Below the pieces are notes generated by a model, which made no database searches, was not told the DNA's origin, and was given only the letters and a program-made list of their open reading frames with translations. Shown piece after piece: positions 22,540-51,205 of a stretch of 64,000 nt of DNA (position 1 is the first letter of the stretch; every line of letters starts with the position of its first letter). The position numbers and the translations under genes were made by a program. The DNA is taken from NCBI GenBank assembly GCA_034687125.1, contig JAQGBZ010000081.1:62001-126000 (forward strand), written 5' to 3'. This DNA comes from Neelides folsomi (lineage: Eukaryota; Arthropoda; Collembola; Neelipleona; Neelidae).

Positions 22540-22914
22540 TCATGGTGAGGGAGATATTGCATCCGCGGTGTGAGGCGTTGTGGAAAGAATCGCGAGGATC
22601 AGACTTTGAGGAGTTGGGATCTGTTGAGATTGATAAGGCTTGGTGATCTCCTTGCTCCCTTCACTCCCGACGTTGATCGGATTCGGTTCTGGAGTTGTAA
22701 TTTTCTTGGCCATGCCGCTTTGGGGGTTCCAGATGAAAAGGTAGTAGATTGAAAGAATGATGGCCACGACGGAGACGGAAATGATATAACCAACTACTGT
22801 GAGAATCCTCACCACTTTTCGTTGCTTCTTATTGAATTGCCTCTTGCGCCCGTCTCCATGACTCGCTGTGGAGTCTTCGGACCCGCTCGTCTGTCGGCTC
22901 CCAATTGACGACAT
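22540..22914 (-). CDS. InaF-motif single-pass membrane protein
   Basis: The exon encodes 124 residues from the Met at 22914. That Met lies three bases inside a splice acceptor (gtgtgggcag, AG at 22919-22918), so an upstream 5'UTR exon is likely and the extra open codons further 5' are probably not translated. A Ser/Thr-rich head (1-20) leads into a Lys/Arg-rich stretch (RKRQFNKKQRK), then one membrane helix at about 35-61 with the pattern VRILTVVGYIISVSVVAIILSIYYLFIW. Lys/Arg, then VR-LTV-GY--SVS-AAI-LS-YY-F-W, is the pattern of the InaF motif, named for the Drosophila inactivation-no-afterpotential F locus, where the protein supports TRP channels in photoreceptors; vertebrates have INAFM proteins. 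The C-terminal tail is Pro/Thr/Ser-rich. The role here is inferred from the motif only. Recognition is by pattern, not by a search. Confidence 0.6.
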   Translation of the reverse strand: MSSIGSRQTSGSEDSTASHGDGRKRQFNKKQRKVVRILTVVGYIISVSVVAIILSIYYLFIWNPQSGMAKKITTPEPNPINVGSEGSKEITKPYQSQQIPTPQSLILAILSTTPHTADAISPSP

Positions 22915-22917
22915 TCC

Positions 22918-24250
22918 CTGCCCACACAATGAAACATAAGAATACTCGTCCAATGGACCCCGCTGTGAATTGGGCCAACGGCACTCAATTTCTCCATCCA
23001 ATTCCTCTCCCAGATATTCCACCCGGAGTGAGAGAGTAAAGCGAAATCCAATAGCCCCCAATTCCCATCTCCGAATAAATTGAAATGACTTTTCTCAACA
23101 CTCCAAAGGTTGATATGAAAATTGGACTCGGGGATATGAAGCTACATTCTCAATTTCAATATGACCCAAACGTGCCGCGCTCAATAAAACAAGGTCCGAT
23201 GGAGTGGAGAACGACCAGTCTTTTACAATATCAATTGAACGTCGAGGCCTTGGGAATGGAAAGTGAAAGTTCCCTTCTCAACTCTCATCACGTTCATAAA
23301 ATTCCAAATGTGCAGGGAAGTCGTCAGATAAGTGGTGGTGGAGGGGAGTGAAACTAACGTTTTTTCTCGGGTCTTAAACGGAGAATGATAAAACGGAATA
23401 GGGCGAGAGAAAGGCGAAGGCGACGAAGAGCGAGGACGTGGCGGTAGAAAGGAAGGCGTTTAATTAATAGATTCCTGATTTATGACCCTCAATTAGGGAG
23501 GGGAAAAGGCGGGCTCAAATCAACGAAGGAGTCAAATGGCATTAGAAAGCTTTTGACTTACTTTTCAATTGAACCGTCGTTGTTGATAGATTTACGAGTC
23601 CAACTTTTGTTTTTGTACTCTGCGTTCTTATTATTGTACTGGCGGGAGGCTGTGAGTTGACTCTCCGGCAGTGTAGGAGAGAGTGAGGAGGCGCGGAGAA
23701 ATGAAGAAGGATTTGAACAACTCGGTGCGTATCGTTACGTATGAAGGTCTGCGTGAGGATCCCCGCCAAGCGTTTGCGCCCCCACAAGCAACCGGCAGAG
23801 GAATCATTGGGGCCGGCAACCTACTTTGAGACAACGCATGAACATACCCACTTCCTCTCTCGTGCATCCTTTACATAAAAGATTTAATTGCTCAACAAAT
23901 TCGTCTATCAATTCATTTAATGACTCGTATAATTTTGATATGATTTAGTGCAAGCTGTTAAAACGACATTCCTTTCCCTGGAATTACTTCAATACAACCA
24001 AAGACAATAAATCCAGTCTCAAGTTTTTGAATATAAAGTTTGAATTAATACACTTATGTATTTACCAAATATTTACCATACATGCAATTATAAATACCTA
24101 TAACCAAATATCTACCATGCTACTATACATACATACATACCTTACCAGTATATAGTAAACTTGCAATTATAATTAAACTTCATTATGCTTTGGGCGTGTC
24201 TGGAAGTAATGATCACAATGTGGCTTAATAAATAGGGTCATTTTAGAATT
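22918..24250. other. Intergenic stretch between InaF-like gene and myosin 3' end
   Basis: It probably contains the upstream exon and promoter of the InaF-like gene, since an acceptor lies at its left edge, but I could not fix them. The plus frame 23085-23351 and the minus frames near 23540-23870 are not supported as genes. Simple ACAT repeats occur near 24128-24141. Confidence 0.35.
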
Positions 24251-24256
24251 CATTGC

Positions 24257-24262
24257 TTTATT
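24257..24262 (-). terminator. Poly(A) signal of the myosin heavy chain gene
   Basis: The minus strand reads AATAAA here, only 27-32 nt beyond the inferred TAG stop. The 3'UTR would therefore be very short, unless a later signal is used. Confidence 0.6.
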
Positions 24263-24288
24263 ACATTAAGTAGAAGAACCGGAGCCTT

Positions 24289-27200
24289 CTAAAACTGAAA
24301 TTCAAGAAGAAAGTTTTATTACTTTTTGATTCGTATAAGAGATAAGAAATTGCGTTAAGGAGAGAAAGTCAATTGTGAGGGTTTTGACTTACGAGAGAGG
24401 GTGGGACGGAACCACGAGCCCGGACCTTGCTGAACATTTGCTCAGCAACTTCACTTCGCTCGTCGGCCTCCTCAAGTTCTCCTTGCGCCTTGCGGAACTT
24501 GGCTAAGTTCAATGCAGCGATCTCTTCCTATAATTTCCAATTAAATTAAAATTTATTACAGAATATAGGATAGTTTTAACTAAATTTTAATATTTAAATT
24601 ATTTATTTAATTGATAAAAAAGTATTAATGTTACGGCTTCTTCAATCTGCCTCTTGTAGGTCTTGATCTTCTGCTGGAGCTTGTCAACAAGATCGGCCAT
24701 TCTCTCTTGGTTTTTCCTATCTTCCTCAGCTTGAAAGGCGAGCTCCTTAATTCTGCGTTCTCCCTTCCTCAAGTTCTTCTGGTCGTCGGCGGTGCGGCGT
24801 TGTTCGGCATCAAGTTCGGACTCGAGTCCACGGACGCGATCTTCGATCTTCTGAATTGCCTTCTTTCCTCCCTTAAGACTGTTGGCCTCGGCCTCATCAA
24901 GCCTAGATTGAAGGTCCTTAAGTTGGCACTCGAGGGCCTTGCGGGTCTTCTCGGCATTCTGAGTGTGCTCTTGTTCAACACGGAGTTCATCGGCCAACCT
25001 GGAGGCATCGACCATAGCCTTCTTAGCCTTCTCTTCGGAGTTCTTTGCCTCGTTCAGGATCTCCTCCAAGTCGGTCTAAATAAACGTAACGAGATGATTA
25101 AATTAAACAAAGTAAGGGCTATAAATTTTTATGAGAAATTACGTGGAGGGTCGTGAGTTCCGTCTCGAGCTTTCTCTTTGAGTTGGCCAAGTTGGAGGTT
25201 TGGTTTGAGAGTTCGTTAAGCTGTTCGTGAGCAGAGTTGAGATCTTGTTCAGCCGATCTGCGAGCTCTGTCAGCCTGTTCGAGAAGAGTTCGGGATTCTT
25301 CCAACTCGTTCGCCCTGGCATTACCCTTCCTCTCAGAAGTTCCAAGCTGGAAATATAAAATGCAAATTGAAACTTATAATTAATGACTTCAAATTAAAGA
25401 TTTTTCCATTACAAGTTCACGGGCTTCTTCTCGGCCTCGGACTTCCTCCTCAAGGGCTGTTTGAACTTCCTTGAGAGAAACGAGGTATCTCTTGATGGCC
25501 TTCTGGGACTCGGCATTTGCTTTGTTTGAATGGTCCAACCCAATCTCGAGTTCGTTGATTGAGGTCTCGAGGGCCTTCTTCATGCGGATCGCCTCAGCCT
25601 TTCCTTTCACCTCGGCCTCAAGAGAAGCCTGCATGGATTCCAAAGCACGGTGGTGATTTCTACGCGTATTTTCGAATTCCTCTTCCTTTTCTCCGAGTCT
25701 AAAAAATCAAACATTTTTTTAAATTAATTTTAAATTAAATTAATAAATCATTATTGGATTAGTTTTTTATCCCTTAAAGTCCACTTATGGATTGAAGCCT
25801 GAAGTGGATTTTAATAAATAGTGGAAAATCAGTTAAAAATATTTTACCTTCGGTCAATCTCCTGTCTGACTTGAGAAAGTTCAAGTTGTCCACGAAGGAC
25901 TTTGTTTTCTTCTTGCTCAAGAGCAACTTCGGCACCCTCAAGAGCAGATTGGAGTTCTTCCTTCTCCATCTCAAGTCGTTTCCTGGCCTTTTCAATTTCG
26001 TGAACGTTTCGGCTTCCTTCTCCAATCTGTTCCAAGAGATCCTTAATCTCGTCAACGAGATTCTTGTTCTCTCTGCGAACAGATGAGAGCTGTTCTTGTC
26101 CTTCCTCATACATGGCCTTTGTTCTGAAGACCTAAAATTTAATTTATTTTGTGTCATTTAATTTTACAACTTTAATTAATGCTAATTTTATGTAATTTAA
26201 ACCTCAGATGAGTAGTTGCGGGCTTCCTTTCCACTGGCATCAACTTCAGCCTGGAGATCCTCAACCTTCAATTTCCATTCTCCAACAATCTTGTCGAAAT
26301 ACTTTTGCTTCTTCTCTCCTTGTCCAGCGATGACTCGGGCCTTCTCGACCTCATTGGCCATTTGTTCGTAGTTGGCTGAGAGCTTTTGGTTGCCCTTCTC
26401 GACAACGACGGCCTTCTGGCTGAGACTCTCGATGGTTTCCTCAGCTTCAGCAAGACGAGCTTGGAGCTTCCTCTTGGCCTCTTCGAGCTCTTCAGTTCGG
26501 GCGAGTCCCTCTGACTCGTACTTGGCACGCCAGAGTTGAGCCTCTCCATTGGCCTTTGAGATCTGCCTGAGGATCTCGCTCTTTCCCTCGGCACTTTCCT
26601 CAAGTTGCTCACGGAGAGCATCAAGATCGTGTTCGACGTTGCGGAATTTTCCAAGAAGGGTGGCCTTCTCGCGACCCTCCTCGTCGGCGAGTCTCTTGGT
26701 GTCTTCGAGTTGGGTGTGGAGGCTGACCTTGAGCTTGTTGAGTTGGCTCAATTGGTTTTCTCCCTCTTCGAGTTGACGGCTCATGTCGGTGTTCTCCATG
26801 GACATCTTCTTCCTAGACATATCAGCCTCACCGAGATTACGCGCAATTTCGTCGAACTTGACTTGAAGCTCGTTAACTTGTTGGTTCAAATGCTTTCCGA
26901 GTTTCTCTTGAGCACTCTTGTCGCTGGCCAAATGATCCATGGCAGCACGAAGGTCTCGGAGCTCTGGTTCAAGAGCTGAACGATCCTTCTCAGCCCTTAA
27001 TAAATATTTTTTAAGACCGATTTTAAAGCTTATAGACAATCCTTCTATTAAATTATTCTACTTTATTAAAATATAAAAATTCTTTATATTTGTAATTGGA
27101 TGCAAATTTTTATTAGTTAAACATAGAATATTAGTTAAATAAATGAATACAATAGATACAATTGTTGTTACTTTTTAAAATTAGTATAACGTGACTTACT

Positions 27201-30200
27201 TGGCTTTAACTTTGCTAAGGTTGTCAATTTGCTCAGCCATTTCGGTCACAGCATCGTTGTGTTTCTTTCTAAGGTTAGCCATTGATCCCTCGTGGTTGAT
27301 GTTTGCTTCTTCAACATCATGACGAAGCTTAGCAAGTTCGGCTTCTCGCTTCTTGTTGAGTCCAATCTGGTTGGATGTTGCTCCTCCGGCCTCCTCAAGT
27401 CTGGAGCAAAGATCTCCAAGTTCGGTGGCCAAGTTGGACCTGTTCTTCTCGGCTCTTCCTCGGGATGCTCGTTCTTCATCGAGTTCCTCGCACAATTCTT
27501 CGATTCTTCCTTGGAGCTCCTTGATTTGACGTTGGAGTTTTCCAAAGAGTCCTTGTTCGTCTTCCATCTTGGCGGTGAGCGATCCAAGTTCCTTGTCCTT
27601 GCGTTGGATTCCTTGTTCCAACTCTTTGTTGTTCCTCTCAAGCTCGACGACGGCTTCTTGGGTGAGTTTCAAATCTCCCTCAACCTTCCTCTTGGCCTTC
27701 TCAACATCTCCACGGATCTTCTTCTCGCGTTCCAAGTTGTCTTCGATCTCATCAAGTGAACGTTCTTGCTTGGCCTTAACTTTGCTAAAGTGATTCACTT
27801 TGTCCTCCAATGCCTAAAGCAAATAAAATAAAATATTCAATTGGTTTAACTTTTAATGTACTATTTAAAAGTAAAGCTTACTTGCAAATCCTCAGAGGCT
27901 TTCTGGTTCATCTCTTGAGCAGCTTTCTTTTCTTTGTTCAACTTCTGGATGAGTTCTTCTTGATGGGCAATTTCTTCATTGAGATTCTTAATGACGGCCT
28001 CCTTTGTCGCTTTGTCTCCGCTTGATCGCTCGAGTCCTCCAGACAATTCCTCGAATTCCTTGTGCATGTTCTTAACTTCATTCTCGATCTTCCTCTTTTG
28101 TTGGTTCAATTGATTTCTGGCATCTTCTTCCATGCCCAATCGGTTTTGAACATCCTGAAAAAGTATTCAAATTATTTTACATAAATATTTTCAAAATAAT
28201 ACTGATACACACAAGTGCCAATAATTAAATATTAAAATAAAAACTTACATGGAGTTGACCCTCAAGATCAGATTTCTGTGACTGAAGCTTGTGAAGTTTA
28301 TCAGTAAGGGAAGATGCACCTCCCTTTGAAGCTTCCAATTGAGAAAGGATCTCGTTGTTCTCCTTCTGAACTTTGTTGCATTTGACCTCAACAGCTTTCC
28401 TGGCAACTTCCTCCTTAAGGCGTCCCTCTTCAGCAGTAGCGAAGAGATCGTTCAAACGCTTGATCTCGTCCTCCACTCGGGTGACATTCAGTTTAGGCTT
28501 GATGAGCTTCCAGAACCTCATCCATGGCCACGTGCGATTCCTAACCCATGATCGCACAGCTCGTTGGACGACTTCGAGTGCGACTCGTTGGTCGGCGAGT
28601 TGCTTATAGGACTTTCGTGTGTTGTAAGCACGGATGGTTGATTGAAGATTGGCAATAATTCTACTAAGACGGTCGTCACGGATTTCCTCTAGTTCTCCGA
28701 GGATTCCAGCCCTGAAGAAGACCTTGGTGTGACCAACTCGGTACTTCTCCTTGTCAAGTCCAATGCTGTCGAAGCAAGCAGTTGCCATTTTCTTGTCATC
28801 CTTCTCTTCGTTCATGACTTGGGCCGCAAGTATGATGTAACGATGCTTGAAGTCGGGGTAGAGCATCCTGTTGGGGAAACCCTTTCGGCAAATACGGATA
28901 CCCTCAAGCACACCGTTGCAAGTCAACTGATGCATTACAAGACCAGAGTCGATAAGACCTTTAAAATAATTTTTAAATGTTATTTTCATATAAGTATGTA
29001 TATGTAGTACTATATATTATACATAGATAAAGTACTTTAATTGTAATTAAGAATGTCAATTTTCAACTACAACTAACCAGGAGTCTTGACTTCGTTGGGA
29101 ATGATGCAACGGATGAAATGAGGATGAGTAGCCTTCAACGTCGTCATCAAGTTGTTCAATTGCTCCTGAAATAACAATAAAATTTCAGTTAATTTCGGGT
29201 ATAAAATTATAATCCATGCCAAATGATCAAAAGACCGCAATTCCATTGGGCCTCAAAAGGTAAAGGTAATGTTGAAGTCAATTAACATTCTAGAAATTAG
29301 ATCAATTTATGTTGTATTTTGGGTAAAAGGTACAAACTACAGAGGTGAAATTTATGTCACGTTATTATGATAAATGTACGACATCTCATTGTGTGATATT
29401 ATTCAATATATTTCTATTGAATTTTTATAGTGTAGGGTTGAAACTGTTGTATATTTCAATGTGCTGAAGATGGAATAATCAAGGGGAGACACACAGACAT
29501 AAAGAAGTTACATTATGTCCGAAAGGGAAAAATTGAGGTTTAGAGGTGAAATGAGGAATTTTTTATCCTCTTGGTAGAAATAAAGTGTAAGACACAGAAA
29601 ACTTGAAAATTAATTAAGGATGATTCTGAGCCAATTGACATCCTCGTGTGAAAGGTAAAAGGGTAAAAATGGGGTTCAGACTCTTCGTATATGAGCCATG
29701 TCACTGGGATCACACTTTTTAATTTGTATTAAAAAAGTAACCCTGTAGCTAGAAGAAACGGTGGCGAAACCAGTACCTTTCTTCTTACCACCTGTTAAAC
29801 GACCCTCCCTTTCATTAGTTCCTCAATTTCCCCAGTTAAGTCATAATTCATAATAAGCTTACTTTTAGATAATTACATAGAATGAGATACATTAATAATT
29901 TTTATTAACAATTAATTTAATTGAGTTAACCTCCTTTGGACTCCTGGGGTGGGCCGGATTGACCAGGATGGTTAGCAAAAATGTCACAAAGAAGTTGGTT
30001 AGATCCCTTTTTGAATTGATCGACAACGGTGTCATTAAGGGGATCCTTGTTCTTCTCGAGCCATCCAGTAATACTGTATGCGACCTAATTTTAAAAAAAC
30101 AATTATTAATAGTCATTTCACCCATTTAATTTATTTATTTAGCACATGTGCTATGATGTATATTTAAATATGGGATTAAGAAATCTAAAGGGAGAAGATT

Positions 30201-38615: not shown

Positions 38616-41600
38616 ATGGTGGGTTTTTTAAGGGAGGACTCCTCAGTTGGAAGTCGCCGAGGCTGCAGGGTGGACGGAATGTTGTTACTCCTCTTTTTGC
38701 CGTTCGCATTCGCTGCGGCCGCAGATCTCGCAACTGAAGGTCAGGGAGGAAAAGAACCGAGAATCGTTTGCTACTTCTCAAACTGGGCAACTTACCGCCC
38801 CGATGTCGGCCAATACACCGTGGACCACATTCCTTATAATAAATGCACCCATGTCATTTACTCCTTTGTTGGAGTTTCAAACGTTACATGGGAAATTCTG
38901 GATATTGATCCTGAAGTAAGTGGAGCTGATACTCCCAATGAAAAATAATATATCTGTACAGTAAATATATTACTTTCCATTATACGAGTAATCGTATGTT
39001 ATGTAGGTATATCAAGGTCCCACAAGAGGTCATAAATATTTTATGTAGGTGAATTTTAACATTTATTTATTGTTTTTTCACTTAAACAAGCTGGATGTGG
39101 AGAAAGGGAATTTTAAAAAATTCGTGCAACTCCGTGAGAAGAATCCAAAGCTTAAGATGATGTTGGCTGTTGGTGGATGGGCTGAAGGAGGGAAAAAATA
39201 TTCTCAACTTGTCTCAAGTCCACAGAGACGATCTGTCTTCATTTCCTCAGTTGTTTGTAAGCTTTAAATTGGAGGAAACATTGAGTGAAACTTTGAAACT
39301 TTGATAACTGTTAAAGCTAATTAATTTGCATATTAATTAAAAATCTCTTTATTTTACAGCATATTTGAGAACCTATGGTTTTGATGGCTTTGATTTGGAC
39401 TGGGAGTATCCAGGTAAAGCATATAAAGTTGTAATTGAATCTTCTACGCTTTTACTACTCAATCAGAATGTTAATAAAGCGTAAACTTTGCTTCTTGACA
39501 CAACTGTCATGTCATACTTTTTATAATACATAAATATATACCTACTTAACTACTTTACATAGGATATACCCATAATGTTTTTATTACAATGCATGCCAAT
39601 AATTAAGTTTGTAATTTAGATGGGAAGTTGGAAGTTTGGGAGTTTGATCATAAACTGCGAAATTTCTCTCATTTTTCAAAGGTGCAACGGACAGAGGAGG
39701 AAGCTTCAAAGACAAAGACAATTTCCATTGTTTCGTCCGCGAATTGAGAACCGCCTTCAATCAAGTTAGCAAAAATTGGGAAATTACGATGGCTGTTCCT
39801 CTCGCAAAATTTCGTCTTAACGAGGGATATCACGTTCCTGATCTATGCAGGTCAATTGTAAAAAAAGGATTCATTCAATTTTTGATGATCAAATGAACTA
39901 AATTGATTAACTCTCATAAATTGCAGGATGTTGAATGCAATCCATATCATGGCCTATGACTTGAGGTACGAAACCCTCGTAATCTTTTCATACTCAATAT
40001 TATTTAAACTATGAACTCGTATTGCAGAGGAAACTGGGTTGGGTATGCTGATGTCCACACTCCACTGTACAAAAGACCAGGATTGGACCAGTGGGCTTAT
40101 GAACCACTTAATGTCAACGATGGTTCACAACTTTGGGTGGATTTTGGATGTCCAAAGGACAAGTTGGTCATTGGGATGGCCTTTTATGGAAGATCCTTTT
40201 ATCTGGGTGATCCAAAGTGAGTTTTTCAATGTCAAAAACTTTATTTTATATTGATTTTATGTACTGGAGAGTTTGCTTTTTGATAAAGTAGAAAAAATGT
40301 CTTTTAGCTCTCATCAACTAGGAGCTTATATCAACAAAGAAAAAAATGGAGGAGACGAAGGGCCTTATGTGAAAGCTAGAGGGTTTCTGGCCTACTATGA
40401 AATTTGCCTATACCTTCAAGATAAGGGTCTTAACTGGACGAGGGATTATGACTCTGTAGGGAAAGTACCTTATATGTATAGTGGAAAAAACTGGGTCGGA
40501 TATGAAGACAAAGACTCACTGAATATTAAAATGAATTGGGTGAAACAACAGGTATATATTCCAATATACAAAACTTTCTTGTATGTATCTGTAAATACAA
40601 TAGTACTGCAAGTAGTGGTAATGGAAAGTATATAAAATGTGCACCATAGAAGGCAAGATTTAATTATCTGTCCCTTTTCCCTTTTTTCCCATTTTTGCCT
40701 ACATAGAATTGTCACGCTTTTGACATTTTGTTATGTTTTTTATCTATTTGTAATTTTTAGGGTTATGCTGGGGTAATGAATTGGGCGATTGACATGGACG
40801 ATTTCAGGGGTCTTTGTGGGGAAAAAGATGTTCTGATTGATACACTCGTTGGAGGTTTGTACTACAGATATTTTACCCATTTATCACTATACATGACAAT
40901 ATTCATTCATTGAAACTTTCCTATAGCAGTTACAGTTCTAAACTTATTATATTTTTCCAAACGCCCATTAAAACACAATGATGGTGTTTAGGCATGCGAG
41001 GATATACTGTTCCCACTTATCCGCATAAAGAAGACGATAGGAAGCCTTGGCAGTTGCCTGAAAAGTGTCCTGGTCAAAGCGATACCACACCTGCACCAAC
41101 TCAAATGACAACGCAATCAACTTTCCATACTTCGCATATGAGTCATAATATTACTACGAGGGATACAACTAAAATGACCCTTCCAACCACGACGACGAAC
41201 CATCCACCTGCGATAACTGATTCGAGTAATTCAATTGAGGACGGTCAAATGAACTGTGATGAAAAACAATATTTTCCACATATAGATTGTAGAAAGGTAT
41301 GTTATATGTTTACTAATACTACATGTATTTAAAATAATGCATAACGAATAAGATTACACATTCTTTAAACAAATGAACTACAGGGAGATCTCTGCTGTTA
41401 TTATAATATTTATCAATAAATTTTAATTTAATTTTAATAAAATATTATTTGTGGCATTATATACTACACCTTTTCAAAACATTAAAAGCAAAAAATGTAA
41501 ATTGTATTAATTATTTTTTTATTAAATTTCAGTATTATTGGTGCGTTCATGGTAAACCAATGGAGATGAGCTGCCAAGGAGGAACAGAATGGAATCCAGA

Positions 41601-41679
41601 AAAGAATATTTGCGACTGGCCAAATCCAGACCATCCCAAATGTCATAGACAACTCTTTTACAGATTTTTCTTTATCTAA
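38616..41679 (+). CDS. Secreted GH18 chitinase with peritrophin-A (CBM14) tail
   Basis: Ten exons (38616-38915, 39091-39256, 39360-39413, 39682-39850, 39927-39965, 40028-40216, 40308-40551, 40761-40854, 40992-41296, 41533-41679) join in frame into 568 residues. The likely real start is the second Met (38679), which opens a signal peptide, [15 protein letters not shown]. The GH18 barrel shows KMMLAVGGW, then [12 protein letters not shown] with the catalytic DxxDxDxE intact (Glu171 from the first Met), then MAYDLRG, and GMAFYGRSF near the insertion domain. [12 protein letters not shown] closes the barrel. A Thr/Pro/Ser linker of about 60 residues leads to a six-Cys chitin-binding domain ending just before the C-terminus. 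It should cleave chitin outside the cell, in moulting cuticle or the gut lining. A single catalytic and a single binding domain resemble the arthropod single-unit chitinases. The C-terminus has a short extra tail (YRFFFI). Confidence 0.93.
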
Positions 41680-45908: not shown

Positions 45909-45914
45909 TTTATT
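45909..45914 (-). terminator. Poly(A) signal of the Gly/Tyr-rich precursor gene
   Basis: The minus strand reads AATAAA here, about 90 nt past the stop at 46001. Confidence 0.5.
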
Positions 45915-46000: not shown

Positions 46001-46443
46001 TTACCACCATCCTGGGCCATAACCCCCATATGCATAACTTCCATAGCCGCCATAACCTCCATAACCGCCATGATGTCCATATCCGCCAAGTCCTCTTCTA
46101 CCATAGCCCCAACCTCTGCCGTATCCTCCATATCCTCCGTATCCGCCATAACCGCCGTATCCACCATAGCCTCCGTATTCATATCCTCGCTTCTCTCTTA
46201 TTGAGCTCTCTTCGTCCAAATTTTCAAGAGCAACTTTAATTAAAAAAATATTTTGTGATTAATTTACTTGTATTAACATTGATAAAATGATTTTAAATTG
46301 TTAGTTTATAATTTTATTATACCTTGACCCTTGACGCTCGGTTCTTTAACATTTTTGGTTTCTTGAGGAGAATTTTCATTTAACGGAAGACAAGTGGAAA
46401 TCGCAACAATCCCAGATAGAACTAAAAACAACAAAGCCTTCAT
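46001..46443 (-). CDS. Secreted Gly/Tyr-rich precursor with furin-like site (YGG-repeat peptide)
   Basis: Two exons (46443-46323 and 46233-46001) join in frame into 117 residues. Residues 1-19 are a clear signal peptide (MKALLFLVLSGIVAISTCL). Residues 20-52 form a mildly acidic pro-region. REKR at 53-56 is a typical furin-type cleavage site. The remaining 61 residues are almost only Gly and Tyr, built on GGY repeats with a few Arg, His and Trp residues, and end GPGWW. This layout (signal, pro-region, dibasic site, YGG repeats) resembles nematode YGGYG-type neuropeptide-like antimicrobial peptides (the nlp-29 group) and crustacean Gly-rich antimicrobial peptides. Gly/Tyr-rich cuticle or adhesive proteins also look like this, although a furin site is less usual there. 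Secretion and processing are well supported; the final role is not. Confidence 0.85.
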
Positions 46444-46534: not shown

Positions 46535-46542
46535 TATTTATA
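46535..46542 (-). promoter_or_regulatory. TATA box of the Gly/Tyr-rich precursor gene
   Basis: The minus strand reads TATAAATA here, 92 nt upstream of the start codon, leaving room for a leader of about 60 nt. Confidence 0.55.
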
Positions 46543-49798: not shown

Positions 49799-51205
49799 TA
49801 AACCGGTGCCGGAAAAGATAGGAATAAACATTTTTTGGAAATAACTTTTTTATGAAATTATCAATCAATTTATCTTTTTCAGCGGTTAATCACCTTCACA
49901 TTACGCTTATTTGATTATGGTTACAATGTAAATATTCTTAAATGTAATTTGTAAGTTAGCGTAAATACAAAAAATCGATCGTTGTTTATCGCCGTAAATG
50001 ATAGGAACATTTCAAAAAATTGATTATAACTCGACACTTCGCATATAATTATTGATTAATAATAATAAGTTTTCCTTTCTTGGTAATCAGCTCAAAGATC
50101 TGAACTGTCATCGAGTCAGCTAAGTTCTGGACCACATTTTCGGGTATTTCCGCCCACGCTCTTTCAAGGGCGATTCGGAGCTCATTTAAATTGTTGTAAA
50201 CCCTAGCATTTCAATAAATTTTCCTTGTGAGATATGCCCAAAGGTTTTCTATTGGGTTGAGGTCAGGGGAACAAGCTGGCCAGTCGAGAAGGCGGTCGCC
50301 AGCGATGTCGTGCAGCATGAGCAAGTCTCGGGTAGCTTGAGACACGTGAGGCCGGGCATTATACTGCATAAAGATCCACTCTCCTCCGCCAAGTCGTTCT
50401 CCATGAGGAAGGAGATGGTCAAAAAGGATATTTTAGTAAACGGACGGGTCAATTTTTTGGTTTACAATGGCTAAAGAGGTGGTTCCCTTATAACTCATCC
50501 CTCCCCAGACCATAAGCTCTTTTATCAAAGAGTTGAGGTTATTTGCGGAGATCGTGAAAATAATTCTTAAATCCATCAGGTCCATCAAGACAAAACCTCT
50601 TTTCGTCGGAAACGATGACACGTCTCCAATTTTGGTCATAGTGCATGTGATTTCTGGCCCATTCCAAACGTCTTCTTTGATGTTGTGGAGTAAGATGCGG
50701 AGTAAGACTTTGAGACTCCGTAATTTTCTCCCAGGGTGAAATAATTTTTAATTACATGTACGGATCTTCTTATTTCTCCAGAAATTTCTCTAATTGAGTG
50801 CCCTTGATTTCGTAATTGAGCAATTCTGGTCATTTCAGCAACAGTCAATTTAGGACCTCGACCCCTTTTGCTTAAAGTTACAAATAAGTAACAATAAACA
50901 TTTATTTACACCATTAGATAATCATTTGTATGATTTTCAATTGGATAATGAATATTTGTCATTATAAGAATTAATAGCAATTATTATTTTACTTACCATT
51001 TAGCATTAAAGGTGCTTTGATGTTAGAAGAAAGTCAAATTCTTATCTTTTACGGCCAAAGAAAAAACGTAAATTTGGAGTAATTGGCAAGTTAGTTAAAT
51101 ATTTTAATTGTAAAGCGTAAAGGATAATGCAAAAATAGTTTGAATATTTAAATCTTCCCAAACTCTAAATATTCTGCTGTTCCTATCTTTTCCGGCGCCG
51201 GTTTA
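49799..51205 (-). mobile_element. Complete but inactive Tc1-like element with IR/DR ends
   Basis: The element is 49801-51203 (1403 bp), flanked by TA on both sides. Its 24-bp ends (aaccggtgccggaaaagata then ggaa) differ from their inverted partner by one base. A second, inner pair of related sequences occurs at about 49989-50014 and, inverted, at 51036-51057 (both contain a gccgtaaa-gata core). So each end carries two direct copies, the IR/DR arrangement of many Tc1-like transposons, where each copy binds transposase. The transposase gene is on the minus strand and is broken. The ends still match 23 of 24 bases, so the insertion is not very ancient. Confidence 0.9.
50069..50870 (-). pseudogene. 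Broken Tc1-like (DDE) transposase gene
   Basis: Reading down the minus strand: a helix-turn-helix segment (LTVAEMTRIAQLRNQGHSIR EISGEIRRS), then a frame change, then RVIVSDEKRFCLDGPDG around the first catalytic Asp, then a stop (RK-stop) and further frame changes. After that come WIFMQYNARPHVSQ, where the second catalytic residue should be Asp but is Tyr, and finally SPDLNPIENLWAYLTRKIY with the last catalytic Glu, followed by another stop. A C-terminal tail (RIALERAWAEIPENVVQNL) is still readable. The frame breaks, two stops and the lost Asp mean no active enzyme. Upstream of the readable N-terminus, near 50880-50990, splice-like signals hint at an intron in the original gene. Confidence 0.9.

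Follow-up and report, generated by a model that had tools for sequence, protein, structure and literature searches.

A two-exon gene for a Gly/Tyr-rich precursor

The DNA analyzed here (the window, 64,000 nucleotides from the collembolan Neelides folsomi) corresponds to C81:62001-126000 in an assembly of 75.1 Mb and 840 contigs. On its minus strand lies a small gene with the following features; its splice sites and signal peptide were assigned by visual inspection of the genomic sequence:

46001..46443, minus: coding region with its intron, stop codon included, encoding a 117-residue precursor (spliced translation)
46323..46443, minus: exon 1 (121 nt), with the entire signal peptide and the beginning of the acidic pro-region (spliced translation)
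46390-46443, minus: signal peptide, residues 1-18
46234..46322, minus: intron (89 nt, GT...AG, phase 1) within the pro-region
46001..46233, minus: exon 2 (233 nt), with the remaining pro-region, REKR, the Gly/Tyr-rich domain and the stop codon (translation)
46187..46198, minus: REKR, a furin-type site, residues 53-56 (motif scan)
46004..46186, minus: Gly/Tyr-rich domain of 61 residues, the predicted released peptide (translation)
46094..46102, minus: Gly-Arg-Arg within the domain (residues 85-87), where a second cut is possible; 5% of shuffles produce such a motif
46537..46542, minus: TATAAA motif, 99 nt 5' of the ATG
45909..45914, minus: AATAAA motif, 87 nt 3' of the stop codon

Spliced translation confirms the organization proposed in the first-pass annotation, namely a two-exon gene with a signal peptide, an acidic pro-region, REKR and a 61-residue GGY-rich part ending in GPGWW. 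The pro-region (residues 19-56, 38 residues) has a computed pI of 4.9, and the TATA-like and AATAAA signals lie at ordinary distances on either side of the gene. The segment directly after REKR begins with GYEYGG and contains 11 GGY units; Gly or Tyr make up 48 of its 61 residues (32 G, 16 Y, 3 R, 3 W, 2 H and one each of E, L, S, A and P, or 52.5% G, 26.2% Y and 4.9% W), and it is weakly basic, with a net charge of +2 and a pI of 8.8.

Codon positions 1 and 2 are identical throughout the 11 GGY units, whereas the third positions of the three GGY codons differ in 71%, 69% and 44% of the unit pairs. As the variation among the units is confined to third positions, the array is a real coding sequence in which selection acts on the protein. 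When the pro-region was shuffled 100000 times, RX[KR]R fell at its extreme end in a fraction of 0.00019, and by the thresholds of our scan no other RX[KR]R in the six frames of the window stands ahead of a Gly-rich stretch. One might still view the locus as an open frame across a simple repeat with no functional gene, because the opposite strand and one further frame are likewise open across the repeat; this is very improbable in light of the third-position variation, the clean splice sites, the TATA and polyadenylation signals, and the genes of the same layout found elsewhere in the genome (see below). Motif counts in the upstream 1 kb were not informative: a single kB-like site against a mean of 0.14 in shuffled sequence, and three GATA-like sites against 4.5.

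Other features of the window are as follows:

38616-41679, plus: exons judged by eye to resemble a chitinase, including a Thr-rich linker and a chitin-binding end; they lie some 4 kb downstream of the GGY gene
22540-28989, minus: muscle myosin heavy chain exons (one exon tested); the best solved matches of the segment are 8u95, 7kog and 3jbh, which we take to be fly, water bug and tarantula myosin structures
50636-50848, minus: short open frame resembling the start of a Tc1-like transposase (by eye)

GGY-rich genes in the genome and their designs

When the genome was searched with the window protein by a sensitive protein method, the matches were two pieces of the gene itself and C418:25684-25839. 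Given that this search misses most GGY genes, we used a DNA pattern for (GGY)3, which gave 98 matches on 17 contigs (overlapping matches counted separately) and none with the reversed-pattern control. Frame-by-frame reading of the 20 stretches that cover all match places outside the window uncovered many secreted GGY-rich genes of cuticle-like design. In a mitochondrial stretch of the assembly, ND2, COI, COII and ATP6 follow the gene order usual for arthropods (identified by eye, except for COI); no tRNA was found on it. The Chitin_bind_4 cuticle domain, an arthropod character, has 39 matches in the assembly, and a telomere repeat known from tardigrades is absent.

Two designs can be distinguished among the secreted GGY-rich genes. 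The first has a phase-0 intron within the signal peptide, 2 to 9 codons downstream of the ATG, an arrangement that is common among cuticle protein genes. It is seen in nine resolved genes (C41, C85, C163, C78, C133, C87 at 152 kb, and C418 at 21, 25 and 45 kb), and C171, whose start exon was not seen, is split-like judging from its acceptor. In the second, the signal peptide lies whole in exon 1, a phase-1 intron interrupts the pro-region and an RXXR site directly precedes the Gly-rich part; this combination is found in the window gene and in C3A, C3B, C93A, C93B and C93C. An unsplit signal peptide occurs in two more genes, C374, where the single mapped intron lies within the Gly-rich part, and C137. 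The window gene thus lacks the phase-0 signal-peptide intron typical of the cuticle-like GGY genes of this genome.

An RXXR adjoins the Gly-rich part in six of seven unsplit genes (the window gene, C3A, C3B, C93A, C93B and C374, the exception being C137) and in two of ten split ones (present in C41 and C163; absent from C85, C418 at 45, 21 and 25 kb, C78, C133, C87 at 152 kb and C171). As both designs and junctions were defined after looking, the corresponding one-sided Fisher values are descriptive: P is 0.013 overall, 0.047 with tandem copies collapsed, and 0.024 without C3A, which has no (GGY)3 match and was found in a flank; if C137 is left out, P is 0.0035, or 0.015 with tandem copies collapsed. 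The count covers neither C213 and C93C, which were found through an Arg-requiring pattern (see below), nor C40 (membrane-like), a plus-strand Gly-rich gene in L035, C14 and the GGYK genes. The C14 locus (C14:172033-173202, L036) is a gene of several exons with abundant GGY and DGGY, and accounts for 21 of the 98 pattern matches. The GGYK genes (C26, C87 at 52 and 65 kb, and C300; L037, L042, L043 and L051) contain long GYGGYKSGYGG repeats with no signal peptide seen, and possibly encode chromatin or sperm proteins; the one on C26 has a weak HMG_box match below the cut-off (12 bits, E 0.29).

The cuticle-like genes bring into focus a structural alternative, in which the window gene would encode a component of a cuticle, eggshell, silk or glue matrix. 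Its pro-region would prevent early aggregation, and after furin-type cleavage the Gly-rich chains would assemble and become cross-linked through Tyr. We consider this a real possibility, placed clearly below an even chance. It would fit with the many secreted cuticle-like GGY genes, two of which (C41 and C163) carry a junction RXXR, and with the low net charge of the window peptide; the same junctions in split-signal genes and the charge of only +2 also count against an antimicrobial role. There is precedent for a prodomain that serves assembly, the N-terminal prodomain of Drosophila sV23 being essential for the vitelline membrane network (according to a title cited in PMC3095610), and for Tyr motifs and dityrosine in the nematode epicuticle (as described in available text of PMC9612446). 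Against it stand the unsplit signal peptide of the window gene, unlike those of the nine resolved cuticle-like genes, and the Gln starts and amidation-type ends in the genes nearest to it in layout. Furthermore, a Pfam scan of the window precursor found no chitin-binding domain, including Chitin_bind_4 (the CPR domain of R&R cuticle proteins), its one match, to a keratin head, being sub-threshold (E 3.9); the precursor had no match in NCBIfam and one chance-level match in the PDB.

Layout relatives and the predicted release of the peptide

The Arg-requiring Gln pattern gave 21 matches in the genome, among which C3A, C93A-C and C213 read as furin-site peptide genes. The other 16 were rejected as chance-like or as unrelated repeat (C598 and others); the C598 array (L068-L074), caught because it reads RQYGYGLDMD in one frame, looks unrelated. 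The cut junctions and C-terminal ends of the layout relatives, together with those of C213, are:

C3A: RNKR-QFGFGRRRFGG...GGYGK
C3B: RDKR-QILIGLGGGG...GGYGR
C93A, C93B: RTGR-QFGFGTGN...GYGYGK
C93C: RTGR-QFGFGTGN...GGY
C213: RQRR-QYGFGSGQ...YGGYGK (start exon not seen)

A Gln follows the cut in all five layout relatives (C3A, C3B and C93A-C) and four of the five end in YG[KR]; C213 has both. Gln after a cut permits pyroglutamate formation, and a final Gly-Lys or Gly-Arg permits amidation. In the four modelled genes with the YG[KR] end its chance in shuffles is 0.002 to 0.016 each, with tandem copies not being independent. Starts and ends of this sort are typical of bioactive peptides that undergo processing. 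Neither occurs in the window peptide, which begins with GYEY and ends in GPGWW in place of an amidation-type YG[KR].

Protein searches of the genome did not connect the window gene with these relatives in either direction: the window protein did not find the C3 and C93 genes, and C3A did not find the window gene. In an alignment of the signal peptide and pro-region, the score of the window precursor against C3A was reached by 15 of 2000 shuffles, a result that is modest after correction since C3A is the best of 12 genes tried. The same comparison with C3B, C93B and C93C was unremarkable (490, 1157 and 1316 of 2000 shuffles reach the score), and that of the pro-region alone with C3A was not significant (608 of 2000). 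With alignments this weak, the link between the window gene and the C3/C93 genes is mainly one of gene design, and their kinship in sequence appears weak.

The processing marks raise a further alternative, a neuropeptide-like precursor in which cuts at REKR and at the internal Gly-Arg-Arg would yield two signalling peptides, one a Tyr-amide of 28 residues and the other 30 residues long. A GRR is present also in C3A and C3B, amidation-type ends occur in four of the five modelled relatives, and the genome has 45 matches to the monooxygenase domain of the superfamily that contains the amidating enzyme, along with other enzymes. Yet shuffling yields an internal G[KR][KR] in 5%, 14% and 27% of cases (5% for the window peptide), C93A-C lack one, and long repeats are unusual among receptor ligands, so that we regard this alternative as improbable. 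The monooxygenase matches, to the C-terminal copper monooxygenase domain, are exon-level and spread over many contigs, some with stops, and the superfamily looks expanded.

The explanation that we favour, though only slightly over a structural one, is that of a released antimicrobial-type peptide. The signal peptide would direct the precursor into the secretory pathway, where the acidic pro-region may keep the Gly/Tyr-rich part soluble until a furin-type convertase cuts after REKR, releasing a 61-residue, mildly basic and probably disordered peptide. At the body surface or in the haemolymph this product would then most likely serve as a glycine-rich antimicrobial-type peptide, which the cuticle may hold in place. 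Secretion, cleavage and function are all inferred here from the layout of the precursor. That a peptide is released is probable; the whole statement, from prepropeptide and furin-type release to an antimicrobial-type role, falls just short of an even chance. The first-pass annotation had taken the furin site in front of the repeats as the ground for preferring a released peptide, and this argument is upheld: REKR directly adjoins the mildly basic Gly/Tyr-rich domain and the same layout recurs in other genes of the genome. The genome also has five convertase P-domain matches, on four contigs, in keeping with this reading. Further points in favour of the antimicrobial-type explanation are the processing marks of the layout relatives and the composition close to that of NLP-31 (see below); the lack of both marks in the window peptide itself and its weak sequence kinship to the C3/C93 genes count against it.

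Known Gly-rich peptides and the standing of the window gene

More speculatively, the window gene might belong, as a divergent member, to a hitherto undescribed family of Gly/Tyr/Phe-rich arthropod peptides released by furin. Many of these peptides would begin with Gln (QFGFG) and have an amidated YGK end, and the family would be the arthropod counterpart, by descent or convergence, of the QWGYG antimicrobial peptides of nematodes, with the addition of a pro-region that those lack. As a whole this proposal is unlikely. A full-text literature search gave no title describing a furin-site arthropod family of such a kind, which is weak evidence of novelty as most subscription journals lie outside its scope; matches in the literature include an ant allatostatin (PMC10194420). 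If the proposal is true, gene design (an unsplit signal peptide, a phase-1 intron, RXXR, a Gln start and a YGK end) would help, where composition alone fails, in deciding whether a Gly-rich product of an arthropod genome is a released peptide or a cuticle protein, and it would connect the epidermal peptides of arthropods and nematodes in a way open to testing. At present the window gene is a modest finding.

Within the same genome, the Gly/Tyr-rich cuticle-type proteins (C41, C78, C163 and others) share the signal peptide and GGY repeats with the window precursor, and some also an RXXR, but have a signal peptide split by a phase-0 intron where that of the window gene is unsplit. Among arthropod peptides, the armadillidins of terrestrial isopods are Gly-rich, 46-57 residues long in most rows and Tyr-rich in some species; they are more basic than the window peptide (+7 in C. 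elongata) and, in the available text of PMC7017220, are reported only from terrestrial isopods, a search of that text finding no mention of a furin site. The haemocyte-derived acanthoscurrins, ctenidins and serrulin of arachnids are likewise Gly-rich antimicrobial peptides, with C-terminal amidation reported (PMC6784228, in part), whereas the window peptide ends in GPGWW with no amidation signal. A crayfish haemocyte peptide reads SSGYGGYGGRF (available text of PMC9774249). In architecture the mussel myticalins offer a parallel, with a basic peptide and an anionic propeptide parted by a convertase site, a phase-1 intron and Gly-Arg amidation ends; they differ in their C-terminal propeptide, their Pro/Arg-rich mature region and their unrelated lineage (PMC5577615, in part).

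The nematode NLP/caenacin peptides, such as NLP-31 and NLP-29, resemble the window product as small secreted proteins with GGY and GYGRG-type runs that are basic and rich in Gly and aromatic residues. The likeness to nlp-29-type peptides proposed in the first-pass annotation stands for composition, the window peptide (52.5% G, 26.2% Y) being within half a percent of C. elegans NLP-31 (52.8% and 26.4%; available text of PMC9658076), at a net charge of +2 versus +6; BLASTP between the two gave no alignment. The likeness claimed for the order of parts does not stand: in the available text of PMC11993903 the NLP-29 and CNC-2 preproteins are described as having no dibasic sites for internal cleavage, with QWGYG immediately following the signal sequence in the nematode antimicrobial peptides, whereas the window precursor interposes a 38-residue pro-region and REKR. 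The same source reports that NLP-29 is secreted into the cuticle upon damage, which implies that an antimicrobial role and a location in the cuticle are not mutually exclusive.
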